Positions 19,544 through 63,173 of a stretch of 64,000 nucleotides of DNA are shown piece after piece (within the stretch, counting starts at the first letter, position 1; each line of letters begins with the position of its first letter). The stretch comes from Cornus controversa (lineage: Eukaryota > Streptophyta > Magnoliopsida > Cornales > Cornaceae). Both the position numbers and the translations under genes were made by a program. A model generated the notes under the pieces. That model saw only the letters and a program-made list of their open reading frames with translations. It was not told the DNA's origin and ran no database searches. Location of the stretch: contig CM048845.1 in NCBI GenBank assembly GCA_026545225.1, positions 61,446,033 through 61,510,032 of the forward strand, given 5' to 3'.

Positions 19544-19892
19544 TGATAGAGTGGTTGACTAGAAGGATGAAACGTGTAACGTAAAAGATGGGCCCAAGCT
19601 GATATAGACAGAAAGTCTATTTTTACTAGGACTTCTCTATCTCCAAGAGACAGTCTCTTACTATGACACGGCCTCATTTTCACTGCTATAAATACAGGAG
19701 CGATTCATATACCAGGTACGCGCAAAATACCCTCTGAGTTCCTCTACATCCTTTGAAACACCATTCCGATTTCTGACTTGATCGTCGGAGCGTAGTCGGC
19801 CGGCACTGCACCGGTGCCCTTTCGATTACTCTTCTCTTGTCTTTTTCACAGGTTGGCGTTTGACCAGATCGGGACGGATTTTTGCATCATCA
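19544..19892 (+). repeat. 5' LTR of gypsy element A
   Basis: Starts TGATAGAGTGG and ends GCATCATCA, 349 bp. It contains a TATA motif (GCTATAAATACAGG, about 19686-19699). It matches the 3' LTR at all but about seven positions. Confidence 0.95.
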
Positions 19893-19894
19893 GT

Positions 19895-19910
19895 TGGCGC
19901 CGTCTGTGGG
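19895..19910 (+). other. Primer-binding site of element A
   Basis: TGGCGCCGTCTGTGGG lies two bases after the 5' LTR. The first nine bases match the 3' end of plant tRNA-Asp; the rest differs, so the primer tRNA is not certain. Confidence 0.8.
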
Positions 19911-19949
19911 AAACCAACCCACGATCTGTCCTATCCAAAACATACGCGA

Positions 19950-21700: not shown

Positions 21701-21729
21701 GTCATAACTTTTTCAGAGGATGATGCCAA

Positions 21730-24700
21730 AAAAGTTCAGCAACCCCATGATGATGCCCTCGTCGTCACATTAACCATCGCCAATTTCACAATTAGGCGGG
21801 TGTTAATCGACAGCGGTAGCTCTGCAGATATCCTCTTTGTAGATGCATTTGATCAGATGAAGATTGGAAGAAGCAAACTCAAGACCACTCAGTCGCCACT
21901 TGTGGGCTTCTCTGGAGAGAAACTCCTCCCCTTGGGCACAATTGACCTCCCGGTTATAGCTAGTTCAAGTCCCAGACAAGTCACCAAGATGGTGACTTTC
22001 TTTGTGGTGGATTGCCCAACCACGTATAATGTCATCCTGGGAAGAGCCACGTTGAATGCTATGAGAGCTGTGACATCCACCTACCACCTCCTTGTCCGGT
22101 TCCCCACGGAGCATGGTGTCGGGGAACTGAGAGGAGATCAGATCACTGCCAGAGAATGTTATGCCACCTCCCTAAGGGAGAGGAAGATGACAGAAACCCT
22201 AAACATTGAGGGACAGGAGATGGAGGAAAAAGAAGAGGTCCGTTATGCAGAACCGATGGAAGAATTAATTGAGGTCAACTTAAATAAACAAGGCACGGGG
22301 AAAAAGGTGAGCTTGGGGTCATCACTCTCACTCACCTCCCGGGAGGAGATGGTGTGATTCCTCAGAGCGAACGAGGATGTGTTCGCATGGTCCCACGAGG
22401 ATATGCTAGGGATTGATCCAAACATTGCCATGCATCGACTAAATATCGACCCCATCGCCAAGCCAGTGAGACAAAAATGGAGAGTCTTTGCCCCAGAAAA
22501 AAACGTGGCAATTTCCGAGGAGGTGGAGAAGTTATTGAAGGCCAACTTTGTGCAAGAAACCAGTTACCCAGACTGGTTGTCAAATGTGGTACTGGTTAAA
22601 AAATCTAATGGAAAGTGGCGCATGTGTGTCGACTTTACCGACCTGAATAAAGCTTGTCCGAAAGACAGCTTCCCCCTCCCCCGGATTGACATGCTCGTAG
22701 AAGGGACGGCAGGGTACGAACGGCTCAGTTTTATGGATGCCTACTCAGGATATAATCAAATTCCGATGTGGCCATTAGATCAGGAAAGGACCTCCTTTAT
22801 AACAGAAAGGGGATTATACTGCTACACGGTAATGCCATTCAACTTAAAGAATGCCGGCGCAACATATCAAAGGTTAGTAAATAGAATGTTCAAGGAGCAA
22901 ATTGGCAGAAACATGGAGGTGTATGTCGATGATATGCTTGTCAAAAGTCAGGAGGCTGCCAACCATTTGGTTGATTTACAGGAAACCTTTGATGTCCTTC
23001 GAAAGTACAAGATGAAGCTTAATCCAAGTAAGTGTGCTTTTGGAGTATCTTCCGGGAAGTTCTTGGGCTATCTGGTCAGCAAGAGGGGAATAGAGGCCAA
23101 CCCTCAGAAGGTGCAAGCCATCCTGGATACGAGATCGCCCAGAACTATTAAAGAAGTCCAAAAGCTGACGGGTAAAGTGGCGGCGCTAAGCTGGTTGATT
23201 TCCCGTGCTACAGACAGGTGCCTCCCATTCTTTCAAGTCCTCAAGCGGGCCTTTGAGTGGACTCCAGAATGTGAGCAGGCCTTAAATGAGCTAAAACAAT
23301 ACCTCAGTTCACCCCCACTGCTGTCATGCGCGCGCGTAGGAGAGGAGTTGTACTTATACTTAGCTGTCTCTCCTGCAGCAGTCAGTTCCGCGCTGATGCG
23401 AGAAGAAGAAGGAGTGCAAAGGCCAGTTTATTATACCAGCAGGATTCTCCGGGGGCAGAAGAAAGGTATCCTTCCATAGAAAAGTTGGCATTTGCCTTGG
23501 TCACTACGGGTAGGAAACTCAGGCCATATTTCCAAGCGCATACCATTGTAGTGTTAACCGATCAACCCCTCCGGCAAGTCCTCTTCAAGCCCGAAACCTC
23601 GGGGCGACTGGTGAAATGGTCCATGGAGTTAGGAGAATTTGACATCCGATACAAGCCTAGGACAGCAGTCAAAGGCCAAGTGCTGGCAGATTTCATAGCA
23701 GAATTTACATACCCCCAGGAAGATGAACAGGTTCAGCAGGAAGAAGCAGAAAATACAGTCCACCAAAAAAGGGAGGACCTAATGGACCCTGGGTGCACAT
23801 GGCAATTGTTTGTCGATGGATCATCCAACACACAAGCCAGCGGAGCAGGGATACTAATCAGATCTCTAGCAGGGGAAACTTTCAAATACGCCCTGCAATT
23901 CGGATTTAAGGCAACAAACAATGAAGCTGAATATGAAGCCTTGATTGCGGGGTTAAAGTTGGCTGATATCCTCAAGGTTAGACAACTAAAAGCTCATACT
24001 GACTCCCAGTTAATTGCCCGGCAAGTTAGTTTGGAATATGAAGCAAAGGGAGCAAGGATGAAATCTTACTTGCAAAAAGTACAAGAGCTGGTTACCCGTT
24101 TCCAGAGGTTTTCAATCACGCGGATCCCCCGTAGTGAAAACTCCAATGCCGATGCTCTCGCTCGGTTGGCTACGGCACAAGAGGCCGCCCAAGGAGGGGT
24201 GCTTGTAGAGCGCATGGACCACCCGAGTATAATAGTAGCAACGTCGGGTGAAGTAAACCAAGTCACACGGGGCATGGAATGGGCGGACCCAATAGCCAAG
24301 TACATAAACAATGGTGAGCTACCGTCGGATAAAGCAGAAGCACACAGAACTAGGGTCAGGGCATCTAGGTACACCCTAATCGATGGAATCCTCTATAAAA
24401 GGGGAGTTTCCTTACCCTACCTACGATGCATGTCAGCAGAGGAAGCGCAGAGTGTTATGAAGGAAATACATGAAGAGGAGTGCAGAAACCATGCAGGAGG
24501 CAGATCCTTGGCTCACAAGGCCATTAGGTAGGGGTACTACTGGCCTTCTATGCAGCGGGACGCAATGAACTTTGTCAAGAGGTTCGAAAAGTGCCAACGC
24601 TTCGCCAACATCCCGAGGCAGCCTCCGGAAGAGCTGACACCAATAATGGCCCCGTGGCCTTTTGCCCAATGGGGAATGGATTTTGTTGGTCCTCTACCCA

Positions 24701-25519
24701 TGGGAAAGGGGCAGACAAAATTCGCAATTGTAGCAGTTGACTATTTCACTAAATGGGTAGAGGCCGAACCCCTAGCTACAATAGGGGAAAGGAACGTCAT
24801 CAGTTTCGTGTGGAAATTAATCATATGCAGGTTTGGTATCCCGAGGGTCATAATTATGGATAACGCAAAGCAGTTTGAGAGCCGACGATTCTAAGATTTT
24901 TGCACAGAGCATGGCATTAACCCACCGGTACTCTTCACCAGGCCATCCGCAGGCCAATGGGCAGGCTGAGGTAACCAATAGAACTATATTTAAAATGATT
25001 AAGAAACGCCTGGTTGACTCCAAAGGAGCATGGCCAGAGCTGCTGCCAAGCATTCTGTGGGCCTACAGGACCACTGCCAGAATCCCCACAGGAGAGACAC
25101 CCTACTTCTTAGCTTTCGAAAGCGAGGCGGTTCTGCCTGTCGAAATGAGGACGATGGCGAGCCATCGTGCCAAGCACTATGATCCAGTTCACAACGAGAG
25201 AGAACTAAGGGCCAGTGTCGATTTCATCAACGAGAATAGGGAGCAGGCGCAGGTACGAATGGCCGCATATCAATAGGCCATGTCCTGGTATTATAACACC
25301 AGGGTCAAGCATAGGAGTTTCCAGCCCAGTGATCTAGTCTTGCGAGAGGTCACTCAAGCCACCAAGCCTCACGGCACGGAAAAGCTGGCCCCTAACTGGG
25401 AGGGCCCGTACAAAGTGATTAAGACTCAAAGGCGAGGCACCTACTGGCTGGAAACGTTAGAAGGAAGGCAGCTGGCCCATCCTTGGAACGCCGAGCATTT
25501 AAGGAAGTTCTATCAGTAA
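21730..25519 (+). pseudogene. pol region of element A: protease, RT, RNase H, second RNase H, integrase (broken)
   Basis: Domains in order. Aspartic protease with active-site DSGSSAD (about 21808-21828). Reverse transcriptase with the catalytic YVDDM (about 22922-22936). RNase H connected to RT (about 23250-23720). A second, archaeal-type RNase H starting at FVDGSSNTQASGAG with NNEAEYEAL (about 23810-24190). Integrase with zinc-binding HHCC (about 24470-24610), core GMDFVGPLP and IMDNAKQFE, and a C-terminal GPYKVI stretch ending near 25519. Two RNase H domains mark the Tat lineage. The reading frame is broken at several places, so no whole polyprotein is encoded. Confidence 0.9.
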
Positions 25520-25754
25520 GGTTTTTTCCCTGACTTGATTTTTTGCCCCATCATCTTTTAGTTTTTAGATTGCATTGGTTTTAAGCAAGTATTATTGTAA
25601 AAATTGGCTGTATGCCAGACTTTAAGTATCATTTGAGAGGTTGGCGCTAATGCCCAAGACCTCGGGATATAATTCCTGTCCAGTTCGAGTTGGTCCCTTG
25701 TAATTTTTTATTATGAAATAAAACTGTTATTCCCTAGATACTGTTGCTGCAAAA

Positions 25755-26150
25755 TCCTACGGGGACAGAACCCTACGGGGGCACACCTCTACAGAGGGCC
25801 TTTAAAGGAAAAAGGCGGGATGAATGAATCCCGAGAAAGGATGAAACCCTACGGGGGCACACCTCTACGGAGGGCCTTTAAAGAAAAAAGGTGGGATGAA
25901 TGAATCCCGAGAAAGGATGAAACCTTACGAGGGCAGAACCCTACGGGAGCACACCTCTACGGAGGGCCTTTAAAGGAAAAAGGCGGGATGAATGAATCCC
26001 GAGAAAGGATGAAACCCTACGAGGGCAGAACCCTACGGGGGCACACCTCTACAGAGGGCCTTTAAAGGAAAAAGGCAGGATGAATGAATCCCGAGAAAGG
26101 ATGAAATCCTATGTGGGCAGAACCTTACGCGGGCACGCCTCTACGGAGGG
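25755..26150. repeat. Tandem array between pol and the antisense gene, element A
   Basis: About five copies of a unit containing GCACACCTCTACGGAGGGCC, TTTAAAGGAAAAAGGCGGGA and ATGAATGAATCCCGAGAAAG. Spacing is mostly about 92 bp, with one shorter step of about 76 bp. The homologous array in element B has a strict 90-bp period. Confidence 0.9.
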
Positions 26151-26318
26151 TCTCTTCAAATGAATCAAGAAATTCAAAGAGTGTGGAAGTAACCTTTACA
26201 CAATGACCCATGTTTAATAAAATACGTAATCCTTCATTAGGTAAACGATGAAAAAGGTACATGGAGCCTCTACACCGAGGAACATTACATGGATACCAAA
26301 AGAAAAAAAGACCCCAGC

Positions 26319-28266
26319 TCAAGGGTCGGGATCTCCAAGTTGCAGACCGGAGAAGTTCATGTCAGGCCATTGACCCTGCGCTACTTCACGAAAATACTCA
26401 AAACCATCAATGTATGACTGGTTGAGGGCCCTGTCAAAATCAGGCGACTCCTTGAAGTTCTCCACGGCTAGTTCTTTCTCCTCCCGTTCATGGCTGAGCT
26501 GGGAGTTGAGGGTGTTTATTTCCTCACTATGAGAAGCGCGAAGGGTCTCAAGTTGGGAGTTAAAGCCGGTGCGCTCATTGGCAAAGGAAGCGCGTTCCGT
26601 AGCAAAGGCTGCTTTTTGCTTCCCCAACTCCTCCTCTGCACATAGGAGACGGTTGGAGAGACCATGGGCAATCGTCAGGCCCTATCAAATACACAAGGGT
26701 AGCACACAGTTAAGAAGGAGAAATATCAGAGTCTCACCCAAACACGATAGATAGGTAAGGGGCATACCTGAGCCATATTGGCCAGTAAGTATCCGGTGGA
26801 GGAAACGGCATCAAGGGCGTCCACCTTTTCCAGATCACGAGGGAGAGCAAACTCCCCAGCCCTTTTTATGGCAAAGGATGTGTCACCCAGCAAAGAAACC
26901 AGTATGGCCGGCCGACAGGGTTAATAACCCGGTGTGGCTGGTGGCTAGGGAGAACGATACATGCAAGCTGTCTCCACCAAAAAGTTGAGTCGACGACACC
27001 CCAAAGGTGCCTGGGTCAGCCAGGCTACTACCCGTAAACAGAGGGGGATAAGGCATCACAAAGGGGTTGGCACTAGGAGCTGGAGTACTCATGGTGGCTG
27101 CGAGGGGAGAATTCCCAATAGAGGGAGGAGAGGATAAACCCCCACCTGTAGGTGCATCGATGCTCCTGAGAACGGGTTGGCGTCGTCTTTTCTGAGCAGG
27201 GGATGAGGACCCCGCAACACCCTTCCCTTTCGCCAACATGCGGATGTCTTGATCGGGCCTCCTCCGAGATCCTGCACGATGTGTACGATAAAGTTTATAT
27301 TTCTCAAATCCAGGAAGAGAAGGGAATGAGGGGTCAAAAAATATAAAGGTGTACTTCGCCTCTCCCCAAGCATGCGAGGGAGGTAACCTAGTGTACTCAA
27401 TCCAGCGTCGGAAGTCAAGGTCACCGCATCCCTCATCCCAAGATCATAAATAAGTTCTAACCTGTCTTCCTCCTCTTGACTTATCTCGGGCTCCACTCTG
27501 ACAGCTGGTTTATGAAAATACACCAATTTCTGTAAGCATACGTAAGAAAGAAAGAATGACTTAAAAAGAAAAGGTAGAAAAAGCTCACCACTCACGACCC
27601 CGTCGGTCCAAGTGCGGGGAATGCGGTGAGGAGAAAGCTCCCAATCACCCGAAACAAAAAAGAATCGTTCTTTCCAGTTCTTTATCCGTTGACCATTGTC
27701 GAGAATCACCAATCCTTTGGGAAGACTACCTGCACCGCGAGACCGGCCTTGAATATGACACCAGTCCTTGCTTTTTAAAATAGTATAACAAAAAGGAACT
27801 CGTTTATAGTTGGCTGAGGAGTGAGCTTGCTAGACCTCCAAAGGACCAAGGTGGCCATAATAATACGCCAAGAATTAGGCGTAAGCTGAGAAAGATAGAG
27901 GTTGATGTATCGGAGCAGTTCTTTCGCAAAGTATGGGATGGGGAAACGCAGGCCCGAAAGAAAGTGGCCTTCATAGAAACACGTTTCTCCTGGGCAGATG
28001 GAAAAGGCCCTCTCTGCCGGCAAATGAGCTCTGGCTACAACCCCGTCTGGAAAAGAGAATGAGGCAGCCAACTCTTCAACATCGGCATCCGTCATTGTAG
28101 AGCTGATATCTTGGCATTCGTTGTAGTCTGCCATTATAGAATGAAGAAAGTCAAATACTTGGACAAGGAGAGAACTGGGTGCAAAGAGCTCTGGGTCTGG
28201 CTTGTTGAAGTTATGATCAACAATGTATAGACAACGAGAAAGAGAAGGTAAAATAGTGCCGGGCAT
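26319..28266 (-). pseudogene. Antisense accessory gene of element A ('putative gypsy-type transposon' domain plus coiled coil)
   Basis: On the strand opposite to gag-pol, between the tandem array and 3' LTR. The N-terminal block has LPAERAFSICPGETCFYEGH, then a hydrophobic FPIPYFAKELLRYINL and PNSWRIIMATLVLW. I recognise this as the plant family annotated as putative gypsy-type transposon (PF04195-like). A Ser/Pro-rich linker and a C-terminal coiled coil (ERASFANERTGFNSQLETLR) follow, ending GLQLGDPDP. The blocks are separated by short gaps with GT/AG-like borders, as in element B. A TATA box lies about 80 bp upstream of the first Met. Function is unknown. This copy looks broken. Confidence 0.75.
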
Positions 28267-28346
28267 GAGCTAGAGAAACAAGTCGTAGGTAGAAAGAGAG
28301 CTGGTGATAAGATGTGGTGGAGTGAGGAGTAAATGAAGGCAGGAGT

Positions 28347-28356
28347 GCTTATATAG
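28347..28356 (-). promoter_or_regulatory. TATA box of the antisense gene, element A
   Basis: CCTATATAAG read on the minus strand, about 80-90 bp before the first Met of the antisense gene. The same motif at the same distance is kept in element B. Confidence 0.6.
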
Positions 28357-28484
28357 GCAATGGAAGCCAACCGTTGCAAACCCCCCAACGTCTCTCTCCC
28401 AACGGTCCTCAGGCACAAAAGGCACCTTTTTGTAATGTTCGCAAGCCAAACGGTCGCAAAGGGAGCTGGTACAGAGCGAATTCG

Positions 28485-28635
28485 CCGGGCGAAGACGGGC
28501 CCACCAGGCCGGGCATGGCTAGCCAGGCCTGGCCCGGCCGGGCGCGGCCGGGCCCACCCGGGCCACGCGCGGGAAAGAAAGAAAAAAGAAAAAAGAGAAA
28601 AAAAGAAAGAAAAAAGGAAAAGAAGAAAAAAATGT
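28485..28635. repeat. GC-rich block followed by a purine-rich tract, before the 3' LTR of element A
   Basis: A run of GGCC/CCGG-rich, self-complementary sequence (about 28490-28575) passes directly into an almost pure A/G tract (28570-28632). It lies upstream of the antisense TATA box and downstream of all sense coding DNA. Element B has the same arrangement at about 49340-49560. Confidence 0.8.
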
Positions 28636-28718
28636 TTATTTGTACGATAGAGAAGCCCAATCAGTAATCCAAAATGTTCATAAGGCCCAGCAGTTGACCC
28701 TCATGAACAGGGGGCATA

Positions 28719-29067
28719 TGATAGAGTGGTTGACTAGAAGGATGAAACGTGTAACGTAAAAGATGGGCCCAAGCTGATATGGACAGAAAATCTATTTTTA
28801 CCAGGACTTCTCTATCTCCAAGAGACAGTCTCTTACTATGACACGACCTCGTTTTCACTGCTATAAATACAGGGGCGATTCATATACCAGGTACGCGCAA
28901 AATACCCTCTGAGTTCCTCTACATCCTTTGAAACACCATTCCGATTTCTGACTTGATCGTCGGAGCGTAGTCGGCCGGCACTGCACCGGTGGCCTTTCGA
29001 TTACTCTTCTCTTGTCTTTTTCACAGGTTGGCGTTTGACCAGATCGGGACGGATTTTTGCATCATCA
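28719..29067 (+). repeat. 3' LTR of gypsy element A
   Basis: Starts TGATAGAGTGG directly after a polypurine tract (ACAGGGGGCATA) and ends GCATCATCA; followed by the ATTTC target duplication. Confidence 0.95.
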
Positions 29068-32201: not shown

Positions 32202-33062
32202 ATGGCCAACCACTTCCTTGTAGCCACAGCTATCTTGGCTCTAGCATTCTCACTAGCACATGCCTTTGACCCCGGCCCTCTTCAGGACTTCTGTGCTGCT
32301 GGTATGATATATATTTATGTTTTTGCTCTCTCTTCCATGGTTTGCTTTCTCATTCATGCGCTGTTTTTCTCTGTGAAAATTAAAGTATAGTCCCACATTT
32401 GTTTTCATTTCTTTACGGTACATTTTCCCATTGCATGTTCTCAATTCTAATGACATTCTCATATAGCTATTTAGATAACGTCTACTATTACTTTGGCTGC
32501 AGTGTTCGTGAATGGGAAGTTCTGCAAGGACCCAATGCTTGTCAAAGTTGAAGATTTCTTTTTTCCGGGACTTAATAAACGTGGAAACACAAATAATAAA
32601 GTTGGATCAAATGTGACAATTGTAAATGTTGATGCACTACCAGGACTCAATACCTTAGGTGTATCCTTAGTTCGCATTGACTATGCAGTTAAAGGTCTCA
32701 ACCCACCCCACACGCACCCACGTGCAAGTGAAATCCTTGTAGTGATTGAGGGCACCCTCTATGTGGGCTTTGTCACCTCCAATATTAAAGGTCAAAAAAA
32801 TCGTCTATTCACCAAGGTACTAAATGCTGGAGATGTATTTGTGTTCCCATTTGGTCTCATTCACTTCCAACTCAATGTGGGGAATACTAATGTAGTGGCT
32901 TTTGCTGGCCTAAGCAGCCAAAACCCTGGGGTCAACACCATTGCAAACGCTGTCTTTGGGTCAGAACCACCCATTTCTGATGATGCTCTAACCAAGGCAT
33001 TCCAAGTGGGCATGAATGTTATTGACTATCTTCAATCACAGTCCTGGGTTGACAACAATTAA
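32202..33062 (+). CDS. Germin-like protein (cupin), two exons
   Basis: Predicted extracellular cupin of about 219 residues: exon 1 at 32202-32301, intron 32302-32502 (GT..AG), exon 2 at 32503-33062. A signal peptide ([21 protein letters not shown]) is followed by the mature start [10 protein letters not shown]. Germin box 1 is [11 protein letters not shown] and box 2 [16 protein letters not shown]; they give the metal ligands H-x-H, E and H. An N-glycosylation site NVT and two N-terminal cysteines are present. Germins form apoplastic hexamers that bind manganese; some have oxalate oxidase or superoxide dismutase activity, which cannot be told from sequence. The reading frame is intact and length is normal. 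The spacing between the two cysteines is several residues shorter than in typical family members, because the part just after the intron is missing or the splice differs. TATA box and downstream AATAAA-like signal (about 33119) are present. Confidence 0.93.
32302..32502 (+). other. Intron of the germin-like gene
   Basis: Begins GTATGATATA and ends TTTGGCTGCAG. It splits an Ala-Val junction so that DFCAA joins VFVNGKFC in frame. The position after DFC is the usual intron site in this family. Confidence 0.85.
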
Positions 33063-47030: not shown

Positions 47031-48341
47031 TATACGCTGATGGAAAAAGAAAAACATGTGAGATATAAATTTGTAATTGGCATATTTCGGTGATCAAAAT
47101 TTGATTGCTCGAGTTGTAATTTTTGATTTATTCCTTGTATCGATCATCGACAACTTCAAACTGATATTCAAGTGAATGAAAGCCAACAAATCAGTTAGAA
47201 CACCATATAGTACAGGTAAGTATGGTGAGGACATTTTGCACTTTTTATTTCCGAGCCTATTTTGAAAAACCAGGGTTTAAATGCAAAAATTAGGATTTTT
47301 CAAAGTAGGACCGGTCCAACTTTTCTCGGCAGTTTAGTTTTTGCAGGTTTTTACAAAGTTCCACCGGTCCTGAATATTTGGCATCGATCCAACTTAGCCT
47401 GTTCCAAATAGGAAACAAAATTTGATGAAAATTCTGATTCCTATTGGGTTTGAAACTTTTAGGAGAGTTCTATTTTGGTATTCAACTTCTTTTTCAAGTA
47501 GAATTAGAACTTCCTTACCTATATATATGTATTCATATTTTCTCTACATATGTGCCTGAAAAATTAATATTTTTAGAGAGAGAAAGTATATACAGTACAA
47601 TTAGGGCTATTTATTTTGAAGAACACACATCCATACTACACGAGTAATATTTAGGATCGTGTTCTATTTCTGATTAGCTGCTCAGAAACTGCATCAAATC
47701 TATTTGCTGATTAGAACATTGGATTGATGGTTCTTCGCTTGCTGAGAAAGAAAGGTGACCAGATTGCATTATGAAGGGAACGAAATACTTGCTGAGTATT
47801 TTGGTTCTTCCAGCAACCTTTCTGTAAGGATGGTGACGTTAGCCGAAAGTCTGCAGCAGTTGGACGTGTTGTCGCAATCATAAGCCTGAGGTGTTCCACA
47901 TCAGATCCTTGACAGAGTGAAGAAGGGTGTGAGACTGAGACAGAGTCTGTTGTACTTTGCTTCATCATAGTGAATTGGTTTCCTGAGGAGTGCTGCCTCT
48001 CTCCGTGGTTTTTTTCGTCTTGGGTTTCCACGTATATTTGGTGCATTCTTTTCTTTACTTGCACTTTATTTATTTGGTTGTTTTAATTGTTTGATTAATT
48101 GGACTTAAAATTGAATTAATTAAAAATTAAGCAAACGAGCAAGTGATCCTATTCACCCCCCTCTAGGTTCTAAAATATTTTTCGCAACTGCTTCTGTATC
48201 GCGCAACTCACAAAACACAAACAACAAAGGAGCATATATGTATACACGTTCAAAATTAAGTGGAGAGAGAAAAATGGGTTAAAAGGGAAATTTTGCCTTA
48301 AAATTTATATTTTTAGTGTTCCATTAGAATAAGAAATATGC

Positions 48342-48660
48342 ATTAATTATTGTGTTACTTTAGATCTTTAGACCAATAAAAAAATGACTATCCCTAGCAC
48401 TCCTCTTTAATTTTTGAGATTTGCTGGCAACAGTAACCGCAACTCTAGCAGTCATAGTTTTCATTGGCCAAAAATAACATGCGTGTTTTCTTTTTAATAT
48501 GTATTAATTATTGTGTTACTTTAGATCTTTAGACCAATAAAAAAATGACTATCCCTAGCACTCCTCTTTAATTTTTGAGGTTTGCTGGCAACAGTAACCG
48601 CAACTCTAGCTGTCATAGTTTTCATTGGCCAAAAATAACATGCGTGTTTCCTTTTTCTTT
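48342..48660. repeat. 161-bp tandem duplication spanning the end of the Mutator-like element
   Basis: ATTAATTATTGTGTTACTTT at 48342 recurs at 48503. Each copy carries the last 64 bp or so of the right TIR, the 9-bp target duplication and the flank (CAACAGTAACCGCAACTCTA). It therefore happened after the transposon inserted. The copies are nearly identical. Confidence 0.9.
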
Positions 48661-48890: not shown

Positions 48891-49240
48891 TGATGATGCA
48901 AAAATCCGCCTCGATCTGGTCAAACGCCAACCTGTGAAAAAGACAAGAGAAGTGTGATCGAAAGGGCACCGGTGCAGTGCCGGCCGAACACGCTCCGACG
49001 ACCAAGTTAGAAATTGGAATGGTGTTTCAAGGAATCTAGAAGAACTCAGAGGGTATTTTTTTGCGTACCTGGCCTATGAACCGCCCCTGTATTTATATCA
49101 GTGAAAACGAAGCCGTGTCATAGTAAGGGACTACCTCTTGGAGATAGAGAAGTCCTGGTAAAAATAGACTTTCTGTCCATATCAGCTTGGGCCCATCATT
49201 TACGCTACACGTTTCATCCTTTTAGTCAACCACTCTATCA
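48891..49240 (-). repeat. 3' LTR of gypsy element B
   Basis: 350 bp, reverse of TGATAGAGTGG...GCATCATCA. A polypurine tract (ACAGGGGGCATC on the minus strand) lies beside it at about 49241-49252. Confidence 0.95.
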
Positions 49241-49339
49241 GATGCCCCCTGTTCATGAGGGTCAAATACCGGGTCTTATGAACACTTTGGATTACTGATT
49301 GGGCTTCTCTATCGTAAATATTTTTCCCTTCCTTTCCTT

Positions 49340-49350
49340 TCTTTCTTTTC

Positions 49351-49381
<31 letters not shown>

Positions 49382-49560
49382 CTTTTTTCTTTTTTCTTCG
49401 CGTGGCCCGGGTGGGCCCGGCCGCGCCCGGCCAAGGCCGGTCGAGGCTGGCCGGCCAAGGCCAGGCAGCGCCCGGCCAAGGCCAGGCGAGACCGGCTAGG
49501 CGGCGTCCGGCCTGGTGTGCCCGTCTTCGCCCGGCGAATTCGCCCTGTATCGGCTCCCTT
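49340..49560. repeat. Pyrimidine-rich tract and GC-rich block in element B
   Basis: A T/C-only tract (about 49322-49397) leads into GGCC/CCGG-rich sequence with repeated GGCCAAGGCC-like motifs (about 49398-49540). Homologous to 28485-28635 in element A. Confidence 0.8.
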
Positions 49561-49664
49561 GCGACCGTTTGGCTTGTGACCGTTACCAAAAAGGTGCCTT
49601 TTGTGCTTGAGGACCGTTGGGAAAGAGACGTTGGGCGATTTTGCAACGGTTGGCTTCCATTGCC

Positions 49665-49672
49665 TATATAAG
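49665..49672 (+). promoter_or_regulatory. TATA box of the antisense gene, element B
   Basis: TATATAAG, about 82 bp before the first Met at 49754, conserved in element A. Confidence 0.65.
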
Positions 49673-49753
49673 CACACCTTCCTTCATTCACTCCTCACTC
49701 CACCATACCTTGTCACCAGCTCTTCTTCTACCTACAGTTTGTTTCTCTAGCTC

Positions 49754-51701
49754 ATGCCCGACACTAATTTACCTTTTCTCTCTCGTTGTTTATACATTGT
49801 TGATCACAACTTCAACAAACCGGATCCAGAGCTCTTTGCCCCTGGTTCTCCCCTTGTCCAAGTATTCAACTTCCTCCATTCCATGATGGCAGACTACAGC
49901 GAATGCCAAGACATTAGCTCTACAATGACGGATGTTGACGTTGAAGAGTTGGCTGCCTCATTCTCTTTTCCAGACGGGGTTGTAGCCAGGGCTCCCTTGC
50001 CGGCGGAGAGGGCCTTTTCCATCTGCCCAGGAGAGACGTGTTTCTATAAAGGCTACTTTCTTTCGGGCCTGCGTTTCCCCATCCCAGACTTTGCGAAAGA
50101 ATTGCTCCGATACCTCAACCTTTGCCCTTCTCAGCTTACGCCTAATTCTTGGCGTATTATTATGGCTACCCTGGTCCTTTGGAGGTCCAGCAAGCTCACT
50201 CCTCAACCAACTATGAACGAATTTCTTTCTTGTTATACTATTTTAAAAAACAAGGACTGGCGTCATATTCAAGGCCGGTCTCGCGGTGCAGGTAGTCTTC
50301 CCAAAGGATTGGTGATTCTCGACAATGGTCAACGGATAAAGAACTGGAAGGAACGATTCTTTTTCGTTTCGGGTGATTGGGAGCTTTCTCCTCACCGCAT
50401 TCCCCGCACTTGGACCGACGGGGTCGTGAGTGGTATGCTTTTTCTACCCTTTCTTTTCAAGCCATTATTTCCTTCTTACGTATGCTTATAGAAATTGGTG
50501 CATTTTCATAAACCAGCTGTCAGGGTGGAGCCCGAGATAAGCCAGGAAGAGGAAGACAGGTTAGACCTTATCTTTGATCTTGGGATGAGGGATGCGGTGA
50601 CCTTGACTTCCGACGCAGGATTGAGTACACTTGGTTACCTCCCTCGCATATTTGGGGAGAAGAGAGGTACACCTTTATATTTTTTGACCCCTTATTCCCT
50701 TCTCTTCCTGGATTTGGAAAATATAAATTTTACCGTACACATCGTGCAGGATCTCGGAGGAGGCCCGACCAAGACATCCGCATGTTGGCGAAAGGGAAAG
50801 GTGTTGAGGGGTCCTCGTCCCCTGCTCAGAAAAGACGACGTCAACCCGTTCTCAGGAGCATCGGTGCACCTACAGGTGGGGGCTTATCCTCTCCCCCCTC
50901 TATCGGGAATTCTCCCCTCGCAGCCACCATGAGTACTCCAGCTCCTGGCGCCAACCCCTTTGTGCTACCTTATCCCCCTCTGTTCACGGGTAGTAGCCTA
51001 GCCGACCCAGGCACCTTCGGGGTGCCGTCGACTCAACTCTTTGGTGGAGACAGCTTGCATGTATCGTTCTCCCCGGCCACCAGCCACACCGGGTTATTGA
51101 CCCCCTCGGCTGGCCATACAGGTTCGTTGCTGGGTGACACATCTTTTGCTATAAAAAGGGCTGGGGAGTTTGCTCTCCCTCGTGATCTGGAAAAGATGGA
51201 CGCCCTTGACGCAGTTTCCTCCACCGGATACTTACTGGCCAATATGGCTCAGGTATGCCTCTTACCTATCTATCGTGTTTGGGCGAGATTCTGATATTTC
51301 TCCTTCTTAACTCTGTGCTACCCTTGTGTATTTGATAGGGCCTGACGATTGCCCATGGTCTCTCCAACCGCTACCTATGTGCAGAGGAGGAGTTAGGGAA
51401 GCAAAGAGCAGCCTTTGCTGCGGAACGCGCTTCTTTTGCCAGTGAGCGCACCGGCTTTAACTCCCAGCTTGAGACCCTTCGCGCTTCTCACAGTGAGGAA
51501 ATAAACACCCTCAACTCCCAGCTCAGCCATGAATGGGAGGAGAGAGAACTGGCCGTGGAGAACTTCAAGGAGTCGCCTGATTTTGACAGGGCCCTCAACC
51601 AGTCATACATTGATGGTTTTGAATATTTTCGTGAAGTAGCGCAGGGTCAATGGCCTGACATGAACTTCTCCGGTCTGCAACTTGGAGATCCCGACCCTTG
51701 A
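49754..51701 (+). CDS. Antisense accessory gene of element B ('putative gypsy-type transposon' domain plus coiled coil)
   Basis: Runs against gag-pol, between the 3' LTR and the tandem array. The first block holds LPAERAFSICPGETCFYKGY, FPIPDFAKELLRYLNL and PNSWRIIMATLVLW, then KERFFFVSGDWELSPHRIP; this resembles the plant PF04195-like family. The next block begins after an intron-like gap (RVEPEISQEEEDRLDLIFDL). A Ser/Pro/Gly-rich linker with a basic QKRRRQP patch follows, and a C-terminal coiled coil ends at GLQLGDPDP. Gaps are short with GT/AG-type borders, so the gene is probably spliced on its own transcript from the TATA box at 49665. Product role is unknown; a nuclear DNA- or chromatin-linked role is only a guess from the basic patch. 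Confidence 0.72.
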
Positions 51702-51924
51702 GCTGTGGTCTTTTTTCTTTTGGTATCCATGTAGTGTTCCTCGGTGTAGAGGCTCCATGTACCTTTGTCATTATTTACCTAATGAAAGATTGCGTGTTTT
51801 TATTGAACATGGGTCATTGTGTAAAGGTTACTTCCACGCTCTTTAAGTTTCTTGATTCATTTAAAGAGACCCTCCGTAGAGGCGTGCCCGTGTAAGGTTC
51901 CGCCCACACAGGGTTTCATCCTTT

Positions 51925-52365
51925 CTCGGGATTCATTCATCCCACCTTTTTCCTTTAAAGGCCCTCCGTGGAGGTGTGCCCCCGTAGGGTTCTGCCCACA
52001 TAGGGTTTCATTTTCTCGGGATTCATTCATCCCGCCTTTTTCCTTTAAAGGCCCTCCGTGGAGGTGTGCCCCCGTAGGGTTCTGCCCACATAGGGTTTCA
52101 TTTTTTCGGGATTCATTCATCCCGCCTTTTTCCTTTAAAGGCCCTCCGTGGAGGTGTGCCCCCGTAGGGTTCTGTCCACATAGGGTTTCATTTTCTCGGG
52201 ATTCATTCATCCCGCATTTTTCCTTTAAAGGCCCTCCGTGGAGGTGTGCCCCCGTAGGGTTCTGCCCGCATAGGGTTTCATTTTCTCGGGATTCATTCAT
52301 CCCGCCTTTTTCCTTTAAAGGCCCTCCGTGGAGGTGTGCCCCCGTAGGTTTCTGCAGCCACAATG
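51925..52365. repeat. 90-bp tandem array, about five copies, element B
   Basis: Exact 90-bp period (GGCCCTCCGTGGAGGTGTGC starts at about 51960, 52050, 52140, 52230 and 52320). As 90 is a multiple of three and no stop falls in one frame on each strand, both strands read open for about 170 codons with a 30-residue repeat (plus strand SFKGPPWRCAPVGFCPHRVS). It lies between the end of pol and the end of the antisense gene. Confidence 0.93.
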
Positions 52366-52595
52366 TCTAGGGAATAACAGTTTTATTTTATGATAATAAA
52401 AAATTAGAAGAAACCAGCTCGAGCTGGACAGGAATTCTATTCCGAGGTCTTGGGCATTAGCGCCAACCTCTCAAATGACACTTAAAGTGTGGCGTAGAGC
52501 CAAATTTTACAATAATACTTGCTTAAAACCAATGCAAGCTAAAAACCAAAAGATGATGGGGGCATAAAATCAAGTCAGGACAAAAAAAGAAAACC

Positions 52596-55500
52596 TTACT
52601 GATAGAACTTCATTAAATGCTCAGCGTTCCGAGGATGGGCTAGTTGCCTTCCTTCTAACGTTTCCAGCCAGTAGGTGCCTCGCCTTTGAGTCGTAACCAC
52701 TTTGTATGGACCCTCCCAGTTAGGGGCCAGCTTTCCCGTGCCGTGAGGCTTGGTGGCTTGAGTGACCTCTCGCAAGACTAGATCACCGGGCTGAAAACTC
52801 CTGTGCTTGACCTTGGTGTTATAATATCGGGACATGGCTTGTTGATATGCGGTCATTCGTACCTGCGCCTGTTCCCTATTCTCATCGATGAAATCGACAC
52901 TGGCCCTTAGTTCTCTCTCGTTGTGAACTGGATCATAATGTTTGGCACGATGGCTCGCCACCGTCCTCATTTCAACAGGCAGAACCGCCTCGCTTCCGAA
53001 AGCTAAGAAGTAGGGTGTCTCTCCTGTGGGGATTCTGGCAGTGGTCCTGTAGGCCCATAGAATGCTTGGCAGCAGCTCTGGCCATGCTCCTTTGGAGTCA
53101 TCCAGGCGTTTCTTAATCATTTTAAATATAGTTCTATTGGCTACCTCAGCCTGCCCATTGGCCTGCGGATGGCCTGGTGAAGAATACCGGTGGTTTATGC
53201 CATGCTCTGTGCAAAAATCTTGGAACCGTCGGCTCTCAAACTGCTTTGCGTTATCCATAATTATGACCCTCGGGACACCAAACCTGCATATGATTGATTT
53301 CCACACAAAACTGATGACGTTCCTTTCCCCTATTGTAGCTAGGGGTTCGGCCTCTACCCATTTAGTAAAATAATCAACCGCTACTATTGCGAATTTCGTC
53401 TGTCCCTTTCCCATGGGTAGAGGACCAACGAAATCCATTCCCCATTGGGCAAAAGGCCACGGGGCCGTTATTGGTGTCAGTTCTTCCGGAGGCTGCCTCG
53501 GGATGTTGGCGAAACGTTGGCACTTTTCGCACCTCTTGACAAAGTTCATTGCATCCCGCTGCATAGAAGGCCAGTAGTACCCCTGCCTAATGGCCTTGTG
53601 AGCCAAGGATCTGCCTCCTACATGGTTTCCGCACTCCCCTTCATGTATTTCCTTCATAACACTCTGCGCTTCCTCTGCTGACACGCATCGTAGGTAAGGT
53701 AAGGAAACTCCCCTTTTATAAAGGATTCCATCGATTAGGGTGTACCTAGATGCCCTGACCCTAGTTCTATGTGCTTCTGCTTTATCCGTCGGTAGCTCAC
53801 CATTGCTTATGTATTTGGCTATTGAGTCCGCCCATTCCATGCCCTGTGTGACTTGGTTTACTTCTCCCGATGTTGGGGTTATTATACTCGGGTGGTCCAT
53901 GCGCTCTACAAGCACCCCTCCTTGGGCGGCCTCTTGTGCCGTAGCCAACCGAGCGAGGGCATCGGCATTGGAGTTTTCACTACGGGGGATCCGCGTGATT
54001 GAAAACCTCTGGAAACGGGTAACCAGCTCTTGTACTTTTTGCAAGTAGGATTTCATCCTGGCTCCCTTTGCTTCGTATTCCAAACTAACTTGCCGGGCAA
54101 TTAACTGGGAATCAGTATGAGCTTTCAGTTGTCTAACCTTGAGGATATCAGCCAGCTTTAACCCTGCAATCAAGGCTTCATATTCAGCTTCATTGTTTGT
54201 TGCCTTGAAACCGAATTGCAGGGCGTATTTGAAGGTTTCCCCTGCTGGAGATCTGATCAGTATCCCTGCTCCACTGGCTTGTGTGTTGGACGATCCGTCG
54301 ACAAACAATTGCCACGTACACCCAGGGTCCATTTGGCCCTCCCCTTTTTGGTGGACTGTATCTCCTGCTTCTTCCTGCTGAATCTGTTCATCTTCCTAGG
54401 GGTATGTAAATTCGGCTATGAAATCTGCCAGCACTTGGCCTTTGACTGCTGTTCTAGGCTTGTATCGGATGTCGAATTCTCCTAACTCCATGGACCATTT
54501 CACCAGTCGTCCCGAGGTTTCGGGTTTGAAGAGGACTTGCCGGAGGGGTTGGTCGGTTAACACCACAATGGTGTGCGCTTGGAAATATGGCCTGAGTTTC
54601 CTAGCCGTAGTGACCAAGGCAAATGCCAATTTTTCTATGGAAGGATACCTTTCTTCTGCCCCCCGGAGAATCTTGCTGGTATAATAAACTGGCCTTTGCA
54701 CTCCTTCTTCTTCTCGTATCAGCGCGGAACTGATTGCTGCAGGAGAGACAGCTAAGTATAAGTACAACTCCTCTCCTACTCGCGCACATGACAGCAGTGG
54801 GGGTGAACTGAGGTATTGTTTTAACTCATTTAAAGCCTGCTCACATTCTGGAGTCCACTCAAAGGCCCGCTTGAGGACTTGAAAGAACGGGAGGCACCTG
54901 TCTGTAGCCCGGGAAATCAACCGGCTTAGCGCCGCCACTTTACCCGTCAGCTTTTGGACTTCTTTAATAGTTCTGGGCGATCTCGTGTCCAGGATGGCCT
55001 GCACCTTCTGAGGGTTGGCCTCTATTCCCCTCTTGCTGACCAGATAGCCCAAGAACTTCCCGGAGGATACTCCAAAAGCACACTTGCTCAGATTAAGCTT
55101 CATCCTATACTTCCGAAGAACATCAAAGGTTTCCTGTAAATCAACCAAATGGTTGGCAGCTTCCTGACTTTTGACAAGCATATCATCGACATATACCTCC
55201 ATGTTTCTACCAATTTGCTCCTTGAACATTCTATTTACCAACCTTTGATATGTTGCGCCGGCATTCTTCAGGCCGAATGGCATCACCGTGTAGCAGTATA
55301 ATCCCCTTTCTGTTATAAAGGAGGTTCTTTCCTGATCTGACGGCCACATCGGAATTTGATTATATCCTGAGTAGGCATCCATAAAACTGAGCCGTTCATA
55401 CCCTGCCGTCCCTTCTACGAGCATGTCAATCCGGGGGAGGGGGAAGCTGTCTTTCGGACAGGCTTTATTTAGGTCAGTAAAGTTGACACACATGCGCCAC

Positions 55501-56420
55501 TTTCCGTTAGATTTTCTAACCAGTACCACATTTGATAACCAGTCTGGGTAGCTGGTTTCTCGCACAAAGTTGGCCTTCAACAACTTCTCCACCTCCTCGG
55601 AAATTGCCACGTTTCTTTCTGGGGCAAAGACTCTCCGTTTTTGTCTTACTGGCTTGGCGATGGGGTCGATGTTCAGTCGATGCACGGCAATGTTTGGATC
55701 AATCCCTGGCATATCCTGATGGGACCATGCGAACACATCCTCATTCGCTCTGAGGAATCGCACCATCTCCTCCCGGGAGGTGGGTGAGAGTGATGAACCC
55801 AAACTCACCTTTTTTCCCGTGCCTTTTTCATTCAAGTTGACCTCAATTAATTCTTCCATCGGTTCTGCATGACGGACCTCTTCTTTTTCCTCCATCTCCT
55901 GTCCCTCAATGTTTAGGGTTTCTGTCATTTTCCTCTCCCTTAGGGAGGTGGCATAACATTCTCTGGCTGTGATCTGATCCCCTCTCAGTTCCCCGACACC
56001 ATGCTCTGTGGGAAACCGGACAAGGAGGTGGTAGGTGGAGGTCACAGCTCTCATAGCATTCAACGTGGCGCTTCCCAGGATGACATTATACGTGGTTGGG
56101 CAATCCACCACGAAGAAAGTCACCATCTTGGTGACTTGTCTGGGACTTGAACCAGCTGTAACCGGGAGGTCAATAGTGCCCAAGGGGAGGAGTTTCTCTC
56201 CGGAGAAGCCCACAAGTGGCGACTGAGTGACCTTGAGTTTGCTTCTTCCGATCTTCATCTGATCAAACGCATCTATAAAGAGGATATCTGCAGAGCTACC
56301 GCTGTCGATTAACACCCGCCTAATTGTGAAGTTGGCGATGGTTAATGTGACAACGAGGGCATCATCGTGGGGTTGCTGAACTTTTTTGGCATCATCCTCT
56401 GAAAAAGTTATGATCTGGTC
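52596..56420 (-). CDS. pol region of element B: protease, RT, RNase H, second RNase H, integrase (retroelement)
   Basis: Reading leftwards: aspartic protease with DSGSSAD (about 56290-56315), reverse transcriptase with YVDDM (about 55183-55198), and RNase H (about 54420-54900). A second, archaeal-type RNase H follows with FVDGSSNTQASGAG and NNEAEYEAL (about 53930-54320). Integrase has the HHCC zinc site (CEKCQRFAN, about 53510-53640), core GMDFVGPLP and IMDNAKQFE, and a C-terminus ending NAEHLMKFYQ at 52596. Gag and pol appear to share one long frame, as is common in this lineage. The region looks nearly whole. Nearly identical in layout to element A, but far less damaged. Confidence 0.92.
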
Positions 56421-58200
56421 GCTCAACCGAGGGCACTTAGCGGGCGAATGGCTCACCTCCCTGACTTCAGAGAAACTCCTTGCTTTCCTAGCATGTGCTT
56501 TGCGAGCGGCGTTAGACTCCCCGCCCCCCGCTACTCCTCCCGAGATGACTCTAATTTCCCCTACTGGTGGGTTCTTGCGAGCCGGACCCTCATTTATATC
56601 CTGTGTCGGATTCTGCGTTCTTTGTCCTCCACCAGCCACAAATCTCCGCAACTGGCCCCTTTGAATTAAACTCTCAATCTGCCTTTTCAAATCTATGCAT
56701 TCATTGGTATCATGGCCATGATCACGATGGAACCTACAATACTTGTCACGAGACCTCCTGGCAGGATCAGTTCTCAACTTCGGAGGCCACGACATTGCCG
56801 GATCGTCTTGGATGTGTAGGAGGATCTGGCCTATGGGAGCGTTCAACGGGGTGAAATTAAACCCCTTTTCACGGCGCACGGTCCTGTCACTTTGTTCCTG
56901 TGATAATCTATTGTACTTAGGGTTTCGTTCTTCTCTGCTTGGTTGTCCCCCCCTCTTCCTGTCCGCCTTTTTGTCACTATCACCTTTTTCCCTTCGGGCA
57001 TCAAGGGCGTCCTCGGCATTCATGTATTTCTGGGCCTTCACAAGTAACTCGGACATGCTTTCAGGGGGATGCTTAGAAACAGAATATAGGAACTTAGAGG
57101 GCAATAATCCTCCCATGAATGCCGTAACGGCCACCTTGTCATCCAAGGCATCTACTTGTAACATTTCTCTGTTAAATCGATTGATATAGTCCCGCAATGA
57201 TTCTCCTTTAGCCTGCCTTACATTTAGGAGATAGGTAGCGGGTTTTCTATGTCTCCGGGCAGCAATGAAATTGCCAACAAATAATTGGCTCAGCTCGTTA
57301 AAGGAACGGACAGTTGATGGCTTTAAACTATTGAACCAAGACCTGGCGGAGCCCTTTAATGTAGTGGGAAAGGCTCTGCACATGATCTCGTCGGGTACTG
57401 CCTGAAGATGCATCAAGGCCTTGTAAGTTTCCAGGTGATCCAGTGGGTCCTTAGTCCCGTCAAAGCTCTCCACTGTTGGCATTTTGAACCTGGGGGGCAG
57501 GGGACAACTCATTACCCCTGCAGAGAAAGGAAGGTTGGTTTGCTGGACCAAATCCTCTATCGTGGCAGGACCTTTTCCTCTCATGGCGTGGGCCATACTT
57601 TCTACCCTGACTCTTAGGTCTTGTATTTCCATATCGTGGTAAGCAAGGGATGCTGAATCCCCATGGGGTTGGCTTCTCTCAGGAGGGACCAAGCGGTCTT
57701 GATTTGTCCCGCCTCTTATGTGACTCTGGGCCGCGTCTTCCGTTGGTACTTCACTTTCTCTCCGAACGCCATCCTCTTCAGGATCAATAGTCCTTACGTA
57801 ACTTGGGGGCGGCACTGGCGCCACAGGGGGGAGGCGTTGCAGAATTGCCGCATTTTGTTGGAGCAGTTGGACCAGACTTTGGTTTAAGTTCCGGACCTGG
57901 TGCTCCAACGCTGCGACACGCCCCTAGTCGTTTGGGACTTTGGGGTGAGTCCCCATGAAGTCCGTCTGTCCAAGGGGCTGCGTACCTCCATGTCCTACGG
58001 GCGGATCGGCTGCCGGGTCCTGTGCATCAGGGGGGTCGGTACCGATGGGAAGATCCTGAGTAACCGGGGGACCGCCTTGACCAGGTAGGTCAGGTACCAG
58101 AGGACCTTGGCCAACAGGGGGATCCTGTATGGTCGTGGTCTCCAGTCCAGATCGAAGGTGCATCATGCTTCGTGTTTGCTTTGGATAAAACAAATCGTGG
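56421..58200 (-). CDS. gag region of element B (retroelement)
   Basis: Pro/Gln-rich N-terminal part, Retrotrans_gag domain (LKGSARSWFNSL, about 57260-57420), a basic stretch, and a nucleocapsid-like Cys/His motif (KYCRFHRDHGHDTNECID, about 56690-56745). Gag passes into protease in the same direction. Nearly whole. Confidence 0.88.
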
Positions 58201-58208
58201 GTTGCGTT

Positions 58209-58224
58209 CCCACAGACGGCGCCA
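58209..58224 (-). other. Primer-binding site of element B
   Basis: TGGCGCCGTCTGTGGG on the minus strand, two bases inside the 5' LTR, identical to that of element A. Confidence 0.8.
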
Positions 58225-58226
58225 AC

Positions 58227-58576
58227 TGATGATGCAAAAATCCGCCTCGATCTGGTCAAACGCCAACCTGTGAAAAAGACAAGAGAAGTGTGATCGAAAG
58301 GGCACCGGTGCAGTGCCGGCCGAACACGCTCCGACGACCAAGTTAGAAATCGGAATGGTGTTTCAAGGAATCTAGAAGAACTCAGAGGGTATTTTTTTGC
58401 GTACCTGGCCTATGAACCGCCCCTGTATTTATATCAGTGAAAACGAAGCCGTGTCATAGTAAGGGACTACCTCTTGGAGATAGAGAAGTCCTGGTAAAAA
58501 TAGACTTTCTGTCCATATCAGCTTGGGCCCATCATTTACGCTACACGTTTCATCCTTTTAGTCAACCACTCTATCA
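58227..58576 (-). repeat. 5' LTR of gypsy element B
   Basis: 350 bp; one difference from the 3' LTR by eye. TATA-like TATAAATACAGG on the minus strand (about 58423-58434). Confidence 0.95.
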
Positions 58577-61050: not shown

Positions 61051-63173
61051 ATGGATAGAAGACTCTATGAGGCTTCACTGAGTGGGAGTGTACCAACATT
61101 AAACACATCGATTGAAGAAGATGAACTCATTCTCGATAGAGTTTCAGTCACATGCTTCCATGAAACTCCTTTGCATATAGCAGCCATGCGTGGCCACTTA
61201 GGCTTCACAGAAGCACTTCTGAGCCGAAAGCCCAAACTCGCTACTGAGTTAGACTCACTTGGACACTCACCTCTTCACTTGGCTTCCGCTGAGGGACATG
61301 TTGAGATAGTACGCGAGTTGTTACGCGTAAATAGAGATGGATGTAGCACTCGTGATCAAGATGGGAGGACTCCTCTCCACTTGGCGGCGATGAAAGGCCG
61401 AGTTGGAGTTATAGGAGAGTTGATTAGGACTCGACCTGAGTCTGCGTATGAGAGACTTGACCGAGGAGAGACAATGCTGCACTTGTGTGTTAAGTACTAC
61501 CGTCTGGATGCCTTGAAATATTTGGTGGAATCCATAAGGAACAATGAGTTTGTCAACTCTAAAGACCACGATGGCAACACCATATTCCATCTAGCTGCAA
61601 TCTTCAAACAGATGCAGGTATGTTTTGAATTTGTTTTAAAACAATGGACTTTCCTTAAAAAATTTAAAAAGAATTATTTACATTTATGTTTTTTTAACAA
61701 TGGGACTTTTACCTTGTATGCTATTTTTAAAACTTAGTACGCTTTTACCTTAATTGCTTTTATTTGGTATGTTTTTACCTTCTACAATCTAGATTTTCTC
61801 TGGTTCACTAATCAATGTACTTGAGAGGATGAATATCACCTCGCATTCCTATCAAATGATCTCTACACCCTCTTTGTGCACCAGTGCACATTAATGGATT
61901 TAAATTCTCACACGGTATACTTTTTGGAAGTGGTAAAAATTTGAAAAGTAGTGTTACCTGAGTCGAAGAGTTGAATAGAATTCATTGGCGGAACACTACT
62001 AATTGGCAATATATAAGAAAGTGGAGGGTTCCACTTTCTTATATTTTGAATATATGACCAATCAAAAGTGTTGGTCAACTAATTTTATTCAATTTCTTGA
62101 CTTTAAAAGCATTTTTCAAACTCGGATGGTTGAGCATCCATTTTTAAAAACTTGGTACATAGGCGGCTGAGGAATTTTATTATTATTATTATTATTCTTG
62201 TTTTTCTTGTTTCCTCATAATTTTACTGAAGCTAGGTTTGTGCAGACCATAGAGTACTTGTTTTCTAGGGAGGAAGTGAAAGAAAACGTCAATGCCAAGA
62301 ATGTGAATGGTTTTACAGCTTTGGATGTTTTAGATCACTGTCCAAAAGATGTAAAAGTCATGGAAATAAGAGAGTTTCTTCTGGAAGCCGGTGTTCGAAG
62401 AACAATTAATCATGGAACTGATCATCTAAACCCTCTATCAAAAAATATTTTCCCAACGCCAAGTACTAGTGAATTAGACAGTGTTCTCCTCCATAGATCA
62501 ACATCACAAATTCCTGTGAGGGTGCTACCTAGTAGTACTACTGAAGTAATTAGAGGAATTTATATGAATTTTCCCTTAGCTCTCAAGAAAGCATGGCGAT
62601 TTCTATCTGAGATTTGGAACAAGTATCTAAAGACTAACAGCCAATGGTTGGAAGAGTCCCGTGGTAATTTAATGGTTGCAGCGACTGTGACATCAACCAT
62701 GGCTTTCGAAGCCGGACTAGATCCGCCAGGAAGTGTTTGGCAAGACCGTCACAATCGTGCTGCTGAACCTGGAATCGCTATTATGGACACTGAATGGCCA
62801 GACGCTTTCAAACGATTTCTAAAATATAACACGGTGTCTTTAGTCGGTTCTCTGAGTATCATTCTTCTTATTGTAAGTGGATTTCCTCTCAAGAATAAAC
62901 TTTCGTTGTGGCTATTAATGGCTGCCGGCCATGAGTACTTCAGTGACATTCATGGCACTTACATATGTACAATCAATATATATGATATCGTTGAAGACAA
63001 TGGATGAAACACTCCTAATGTGTAACATATCAGTTTACATATGGATAGGGTTGTGCGGGATTGTCATACTGATTCATTCCATGAACATTTTGGTGTGGGT
63101 GGTGAAGAGGTTGCGAAAGTTTTTAATTCGGAAAAGGAGGATAATGGTGTGTGTTAGTGGGTGTGCAAGTTGA
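61051..63173 (+). CDS. BDA1-like ankyrin-repeat protein with PGG membrane domain, two exons, frameshifted near the C-terminus
   Basis: Exon 1 61051-61617 and exon 2 from 62246, joined in frame across a GT..AG intron. Exon 1 (189 residues, start MDRRLYEASLSGSVPTL) has ankyrin repeats ETPLHIAAMRGHLGF, HSPLHLASAEGHVEIV, RTPLHLAAMKGRVGVI, ETMLHLCVKYYRLDAL and NTIFHLAA. Exon 2 continues the last repeat (NGFTALDVLDHCPKDV) and then the PGG domain (NLMVAATVTSTMAFEAGLDP, then PGSVWQD) with membrane segments. The family includes Arabidopsis BDA1, a plasma-membrane protein in defence signalling. Near 62921-62935 the frame shifts: one frame ends at 63007 after about 443 residues. The expected VTFMALTYVQSIYMI and the last membrane helix lie in another frame that stops at 63173. 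Either a real loss of the C-terminus, a sequencing error or a pseudogene. Confidence 0.85.
61618..62245 (+). other. Intron of the ankyrin gene
   Basis: Starts GTATGTTTTG and ends GGTTTGTGCAG, 628 bp, phase 0. It contains a short TTA microsatellite near 62176-62193. Confidence 0.85.

Follow-up and report, generated by a model that had tools for sequence, protein, structure and literature searches.

The window, a 64,000-nucleotide stretch of DNA, derives from a genome of 771.7 Mb whose gene and repeat content are those of a plant. It holds a young Ty3/gypsy retrotransposon of the Retand type which carries, in the interval between pol and the 3′ LTR, a predicted gene on the strand opposite to gag-pol, with its ATG at 49754 and its TGA ending at 51701. 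The Pfam matches place gag-pol on the minus strand and the gene on the plus strand, as the preliminary description of this DNA had it. We put the probability that this is the TRP28 accessory gene carried in antisense by an element of the Retand lineage at roughly 80%, judging from sequence comparison. The features of the element, and of an older element in the same window, are as follows.

48891–58576, minus strand: young Retand-type Ty3/gypsy element (blastn self comparison; termini and flanks read)
48891–49240 and 58227–58576, in the minus-strand element: 3′ LTR and 5′ LTR, 350 bp each
49664–49672, plus strand: TATA box of the antisense gene, CTATATAAG, identical in 31 of 31 copies
49754–50432, plus strand: predicted exon 1, TRP28 (PF04195) domain at aa 98–142 (Pfam; copy comparison)
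50433–50516, plus strand: predicted intron 1, 84 nt, phase 1; donor in 31/31 and acceptor in 30/31 copies, also in 9 other loci
50517–50666, plus strand: predicted exon 2 (gene model, locus comparison)
50667–50749, plus strand: predicted intron 2, 83 nt, phase 1; GT in 31/31 and AG in 31/31 copies
50750–51252, plus strand: predicted exon 3, basic NLS-like start (SRRRP...KGKG...QKRRR), then Ser/Pro/Gly-rich
51253–51338, plus strand: predicted intron 3, 86 nt, phase 0; GT in 31/31 and AG in 29/31 copies
51339–51701, plus strand: predicted exon 4, Glu/Arg-rich stretch, TGA stop
51856–52355, no strand: tandem array of a 90-bp unit (5.5 copies) separating pol from the antisense gene (Tandem Repeats Finder)
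52596–54332, minus strand: second RNase H and integrase frame (Pfam RVT_3, Integrase_H2C2, rve)
54396–57908, minus strand: gag-RT-RNase H reading frame (Pfam Retrotrans_gag, RVT_1, RT_RNaseH_2, RT_RNaseH)
19544–29067: older element, 7 differences in 349 LTR positions, target-site duplication ATTTC
26319–28266, minus strand: homologous antisense gene of the older element, broken by one −1 and one +1 frameshift

The LTR pair of the young element differs by one mismatch in 350 (blastn self comparison), in agreement with the youth earlier claimed for it, and a 5-bp target-site duplication, ATTCT on the plus strand, flanks the insertion. For LTR dating, substitution rates of 1.3e-8 and 7e-9 per site per year are assumed, which give an age of approximately 0.1–0.2 My for the young element and 0.8–1.5 My for the older one. 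The older copy had been described as having the same layout; the layout is indeed alike, but the gene there carries the two frameshifts. In the young copy the antisense gene is intact while the pol frame is interrupted at 54333–54396, between its two RNase H domains, and this copy may depend on others. Directly beyond its 3′ LTR lies a 161-bp direct duplication (48335–48656, 98% alike).

The left edge of the window holds part of a second element (95–4577). Its integrase frame, on the plus strand at 95–1162 (Pfam rve, Integrase_H2C2), faces a gene on the minus strand, at 2970–4577, that has a Plant mobile domain (PF10536); a further downstream frame at 1519–1941 has no Pfam match. The PF10536 gene seems to contain intron-like gaps and appears to be a further antisense accessory gene, of another type; TATA[AT]A was not found within 400 bp upstream of it, and four short repeat copies, 38–43 bases apart, lie directly upstream at 4729–4870. 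Elsewhere in the window a unit of approximately 162 bp is repeated four times in tandem at 14360–15061 (the others being 63–83% alike to the reference copy), and there are host-like genes with cupin-domain and ankyrin-repeat frames, at 32493–33062 and 61051–61737 respectively.

Identity of the element and its known relatives

RT_RNaseH occupies aa 1046–1145 of the first pol frame, while RVT_3 occupies aa 11–129 and the integrase domains aa 219–389 of the second (all by Pfam), which places a second, archaeal-type RNase H after the first and before integrase. This arrangement is reported to mark Ogre and Retand elements (PMC6317226). The antisense TRP28 gene in the interval from pol to the 3′ LTR, itself a Retand trait, and the 90-bp tandem array point to Retand (PMC11963269). 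The dimensions also fall within the ranges given for Retand in a recent survey (PMC11963269): the LTR is 350 bp (range 315–1,194 bp), the internal region 8,986 bp (49241–58226; range 7,380–12,869 bp) and the pol-3′ LTR interval 3,355 bp (49241–52595; range 2,933–6,566 bp).

That survey (Vicient 2025, PMC11963269) describes antisense TRP28 genes for 97% of the Retand clusters with recent activity; they make up 57 of 104 antisense ORFs longer than 600 bp, and when shorter ORFs are counted all clusters but two have one. In an earlier survey the figure for Transposase_28 was 23% of Retand elements (PMC6317226). The present element shares with the surveyed ones an antisense PF04195 ORF in the pol-3′ LTR interval, tandem repeats in the same place, and its sizes, but the survey describes uninterrupted ORFs, whereas here there are four predicted exons, a TATA box and a test for selection. 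In the Retand element of Silene latifolia, another plant, an antisense ORF4 with Transposase_28 is reported to show weak ubiquitous expression (PMC7264820), and an amplified tandem repeat is named in the title of the work cited there. Maize Grande gene23 is similar in being an antisense accessory gene in the 3′ internal region with its own promoter; its transcription from that promoter and a nuclear product are reported (PMC7264820), whereas for the present gene the TATA box and an NLS-like stretch were read from sequence. Retroviral antisense genes such as those of HTLV are a works-like analogy, as they too are expressed in antisense (PMC7264820, PMC11963269), but the HTLV promoter is reported to lie within the 3′ LTR (PMC7264820), while the candidate promoter here is internal.

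The class of feature is thus already known, and the additions made here are the gene model and the selection test. The interpretation given in the preliminary description is supported in part: the locus is a protein-coding gene in antisense, it has a core promoter box of its own and predicted introns, and its dN/dS among copies lies under 1. Novelty is not claimed for introns in antisense TRP28 genes: the word "intron" is absent from the available text of PMC11963269 and PMC7264820, and Steinbauerova 2011 and Gomez-Orte 2013, outside the scope of this comparison, are likelier sources.

Predicted exons, introns and product

The final gene model joins four predicted exons (49754–50432, 50517–50666, 50750–51252 and 51339–51701) into a product of 564 aa. 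Its TRP28 domain was found with the 570-aa product of our first model (PF04195, E 3.2e-7, 30.9 bits against a cut-off of 26.2, aa 98–142), and the matched stretch lies within exon 1, in the part common to both models. No other Pfam family matched at E ≤0.01. Exons 1, 3 and 4 had no match in NCBIfam, whose models are mainly prokaryotic, and no PDB sequence relative of exon 1 was found below E 0.17; PDB matches to MBD4 at E 0.17 and above were treated as chance. The coiled coil proposed for the end of the protein was not established, a crude heptad count reaching at most 0.46 hydrophobic a/d positions.

Intron 1 was placed by comparison with other loci. The first model had it at 50426–50491, with an acceptor AG that is present in just three of 12 other loci (L001, L004, L005), absent in seven (L002, L003, L008, L039, L040, L041, L043) and misaligned in L006 and L007; a still earlier donor gave a frame with stops. 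The 50433/50516 pair is present in all nine other loci read by eye (L001–L008, L041), and for this reason it was adopted. The choice depends on these other loci since the close copies hardly discriminate, the rejected donor and acceptor being kept in 30 and 31 of 31 copies respectively. The adopted sites are conserved down to approximately 53% amino acid identity (L006). For introns 2 and 3 an automatic alignment of the 12 other loci gave GT..AG in 10/12 and 9/12 respectively, with L040 lacking one acceptor and L002, L006 and L007 truncated or misaligned.

The intron-like gaps described earlier correspond to these three T-rich introns of 84, 83 and 86 nt, in which GT..AG is kept in 90 of 93 cases across the 31 copies. 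It is conceivable, given that exon 1 with read-through forms an ORF of 245 codons, that the "introns" are never spliced and that short ORFs are translated separately. We consider this very unlikely in view of the retained splice sites, including those of intron 1 in the distant L006 locus, and because divergence is lower at the splice dinucleotides (0.016) than in the intron interiors (0.064; 31 copies), the T content is 40–44% in the introns against 23–30% in the exons, and a single frame through all four exons arises only after the predicted splicing.

Spliced forms were also sought as DNA. Exon-exon junctions 1, 2 and 3, with up to three mismatches allowed, were found 0, 0 and 0 times genome-wide, while the unspliced boundaries at the intron 2 acceptor and the intron 3 donor occur at 79 and 89 places. 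This is the pattern expected if sense RNA alone is the template for new copies, and it fits the earlier idea that antisense orientation allows introns to outlast retrotransposition; the absence of junctions is not in itself proof of splicing.

Conservation and selection across copies

The best 150 of 1111 candidates in a genome search for PF04195 were scored and all 150 exceeded the cut-off, whereas 14 control genomes gave no PF04195 matches. At one locus (L042, contig C11) an apparent 1877-aa frame at the TRP28 match was an artefact of masked N bases; what this locus encodes looks like an ordinary copy of the family. Searching the genome at the DNA level with the gene region, with the best 40 of 543 candidates scored, gave 30 loci. 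As one of these is a window copy, the set used for comparison consists of 29 non-window loci and the two window copies, 31 in all, among which old copies are under-represented because the set was picked by DNA similarity. All 29 non-window loci have the 3′ LTR upstream and integrase in antisense downstream, and the ATG and TGA are kept in 31/31 copies. Fully intact antisense genes are found in 15 of the 31. Among the 16 broken copies, four are frameshifted, the older window copy being one of them, and the other 12 carry in-frame stops, three of these having also lost a splice site.

The core promoter box is conserved beyond its surroundings. Exactly 82 bases separate TATATAA (49665–49671) from the ATG, matching the earlier figure of about 82 bp. 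The nine-base CTATATAAG is invariant in 31/31 copies, compared with a mean pairwise divergence of 0.046 directly upstream and 0.084 in the 5′ leader; of the 375 overlapping 9-mers in noncoding sequence, 12 show no variation at all. A 26-base promoter stretch, with up to three mismatches allowed, had 125 matches genome-wide against 0 for the backwards control, and TATATAA was intact by eye in 99 among the 100 matches listed (the exception being L005), a search biased to TATA-keeping copies because the pattern includes the box. At 12 other loci with 53–92% amino acid identity, TATA[AT]A occurs within 200 bp upstream of the start in ten (the start at L006 being extrapolated) and was not found within that distance at L005 and L041. 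Between the 3′ LTR and the promoter, at 49322–49487, a pyrimidine-rich tract is followed by GC-rich 21-bp repeats, which are possibly promoter-proximal control DNA.

To describe selection we separated variants shared by at least two copies, which mostly reflect replicating lineages, from those private to one copy, which are mostly post-insertion. Shared variants in the antisense gene comprise 65 nonsynonymous and 124 synonymous changes, giving an omega-like ratio of 0.27, and private variants comprise 148 and 104, giving 0.71 (Fisher p 5e-7 for the contrast); in this ratio each site is counted once and base type is corrected, with CpG context and relatedness ignored. In the integrase C-terminus, used as a control in the same 31 copies, the private variants are 63:31 (0.996) and the shared ones 16:43 (0.19). 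The private variants of the antisense gene, unlike those of integrase, are thus below neutral, which may be due to very recent shared ancestry or to CpG effects.

Other measures were taken on the first gene model. The mean pairwise dN/dS (ratio of means) was 0.168, against 0.141 for integrase, and the codon-model omega was 0.35, against 0.48. Broken down by region, the shared nonsynonymous and synonymous variants numbered, for the TRP28 region, 5:15 (ratio 0.18); for the N-terminus, 12:26 (0.22); for the remainder of exon 1, 7:10 (0.36); for exons 2–3, 31:46 (0.36); and for exon 4, 14:28 (0.26). The preliminary description had proposed a dN/dS below 1 among copies as its own test, and both the pairwise value and the ratio for shared variants lie well below that. 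Comparison of the copies indicates that the antisense gene is under purifying selection in replicating lineages at a level close to that of integrase.

With more than half of the copies broken, one could regard the gene as a decaying passenger, a captured or nested sequence retained just by hitch-hiking. This reading is contradicted by the ratio for shared variants, which is near that of integrase, by the layout being constant in 29/29 loci and by the recurrence of gene and TATA box in other subfamilies, and we give it practically no weight.

A further alternative places the function in the antisense transcript itself, which would pair with the 3′ portion of the genomic RNA, tuning or triggering small-RNA silencing, the protein being incidental. 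Such a transcript would be complementary to approximately 2 kb of genomic RNA, and RNA pairing has also been raised as a possibility in PMC7264820. The differences between copies, however, concentrate at codon position 3 (divergence of 0.033, 0.021 and 0.096 at positions 1, 2 and 3; 31 copies, final model), and the shared nonsynonymous to synonymous ratio is approximately a quarter of the neutral expectation, a pattern that pairing alone does not give. A purely RNA role is therefore improbable, and the purifying selection on codons argues for function as a protein and not just as antisense RNA, although RNA and protein roles could coexist.

Possible role of the protein

The mechanism that we favour would begin with transcription of the antisense gene by Pol II from the integrated copy and splicing of the mRNA. 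The protein would then enter the nucleus, as suggested by the basic NLS-like stretch across the exon 2–3 border (KRGSRRR...QKRRR; a crude pattern for it matched 7 of 11 loci tried) and by the nuclear product reported for Grande (PMC7264820). There it may bind element DNA or chromatin and regulate transcription or integration, in the manner of a retroviral accessory protein; TRP28 is predicted to be DNA-binding with a possible regulatory role (PMC11963269). Placement in antisense would hide the introns from splicing of the sense genomic RNA, in which they are reverse complements and would go unrecognised, so that they could be copied at every transposition. A nuclear regulatory protein is our leading inference, the regulatory step taken by itself having roughly even odds.

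The preliminary description had suggested a product acting on host silencing, that is, an anti-silencing factor directed against host DNA methylation or small-RNA pathways. The basic NLS-like stretch and the selection on the gene would suit this, as would expression solely from integrated copies, but the protein has no Pfam match at E ≤0.01 other than PF04195, no NCBIfam match in the three exons searched and no clear PDB relative of exon 1, and nothing here separates anti-silencing from self-regulation. We regard an anti-silencing role as possible but unlikely, and a self-regulatory nuclear protein as the likelier of the two, while recognising that the data do not separate them.

A more speculative reading, to which we attach a little less likelihood than to anti-silencing, is that the protein can be produced by splicing from integrated copies alone, packaged sense RNA never yielding it, and would act as a sensor of integrated copy number that regulates new transposition. 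If so, the introns would be safe from loss, since the spliced mRNA is not the template.

Antisense TRP28 genes are a recognised trait of this group of plant retrotransposons. Surveys based on ORF length can cut a gene model such as this one short. What had been an "ORF in antisense" can be viewed, with integrase as a yardstick, as a gene under selection that has three predicted introns and whose core promoter box is conserved.
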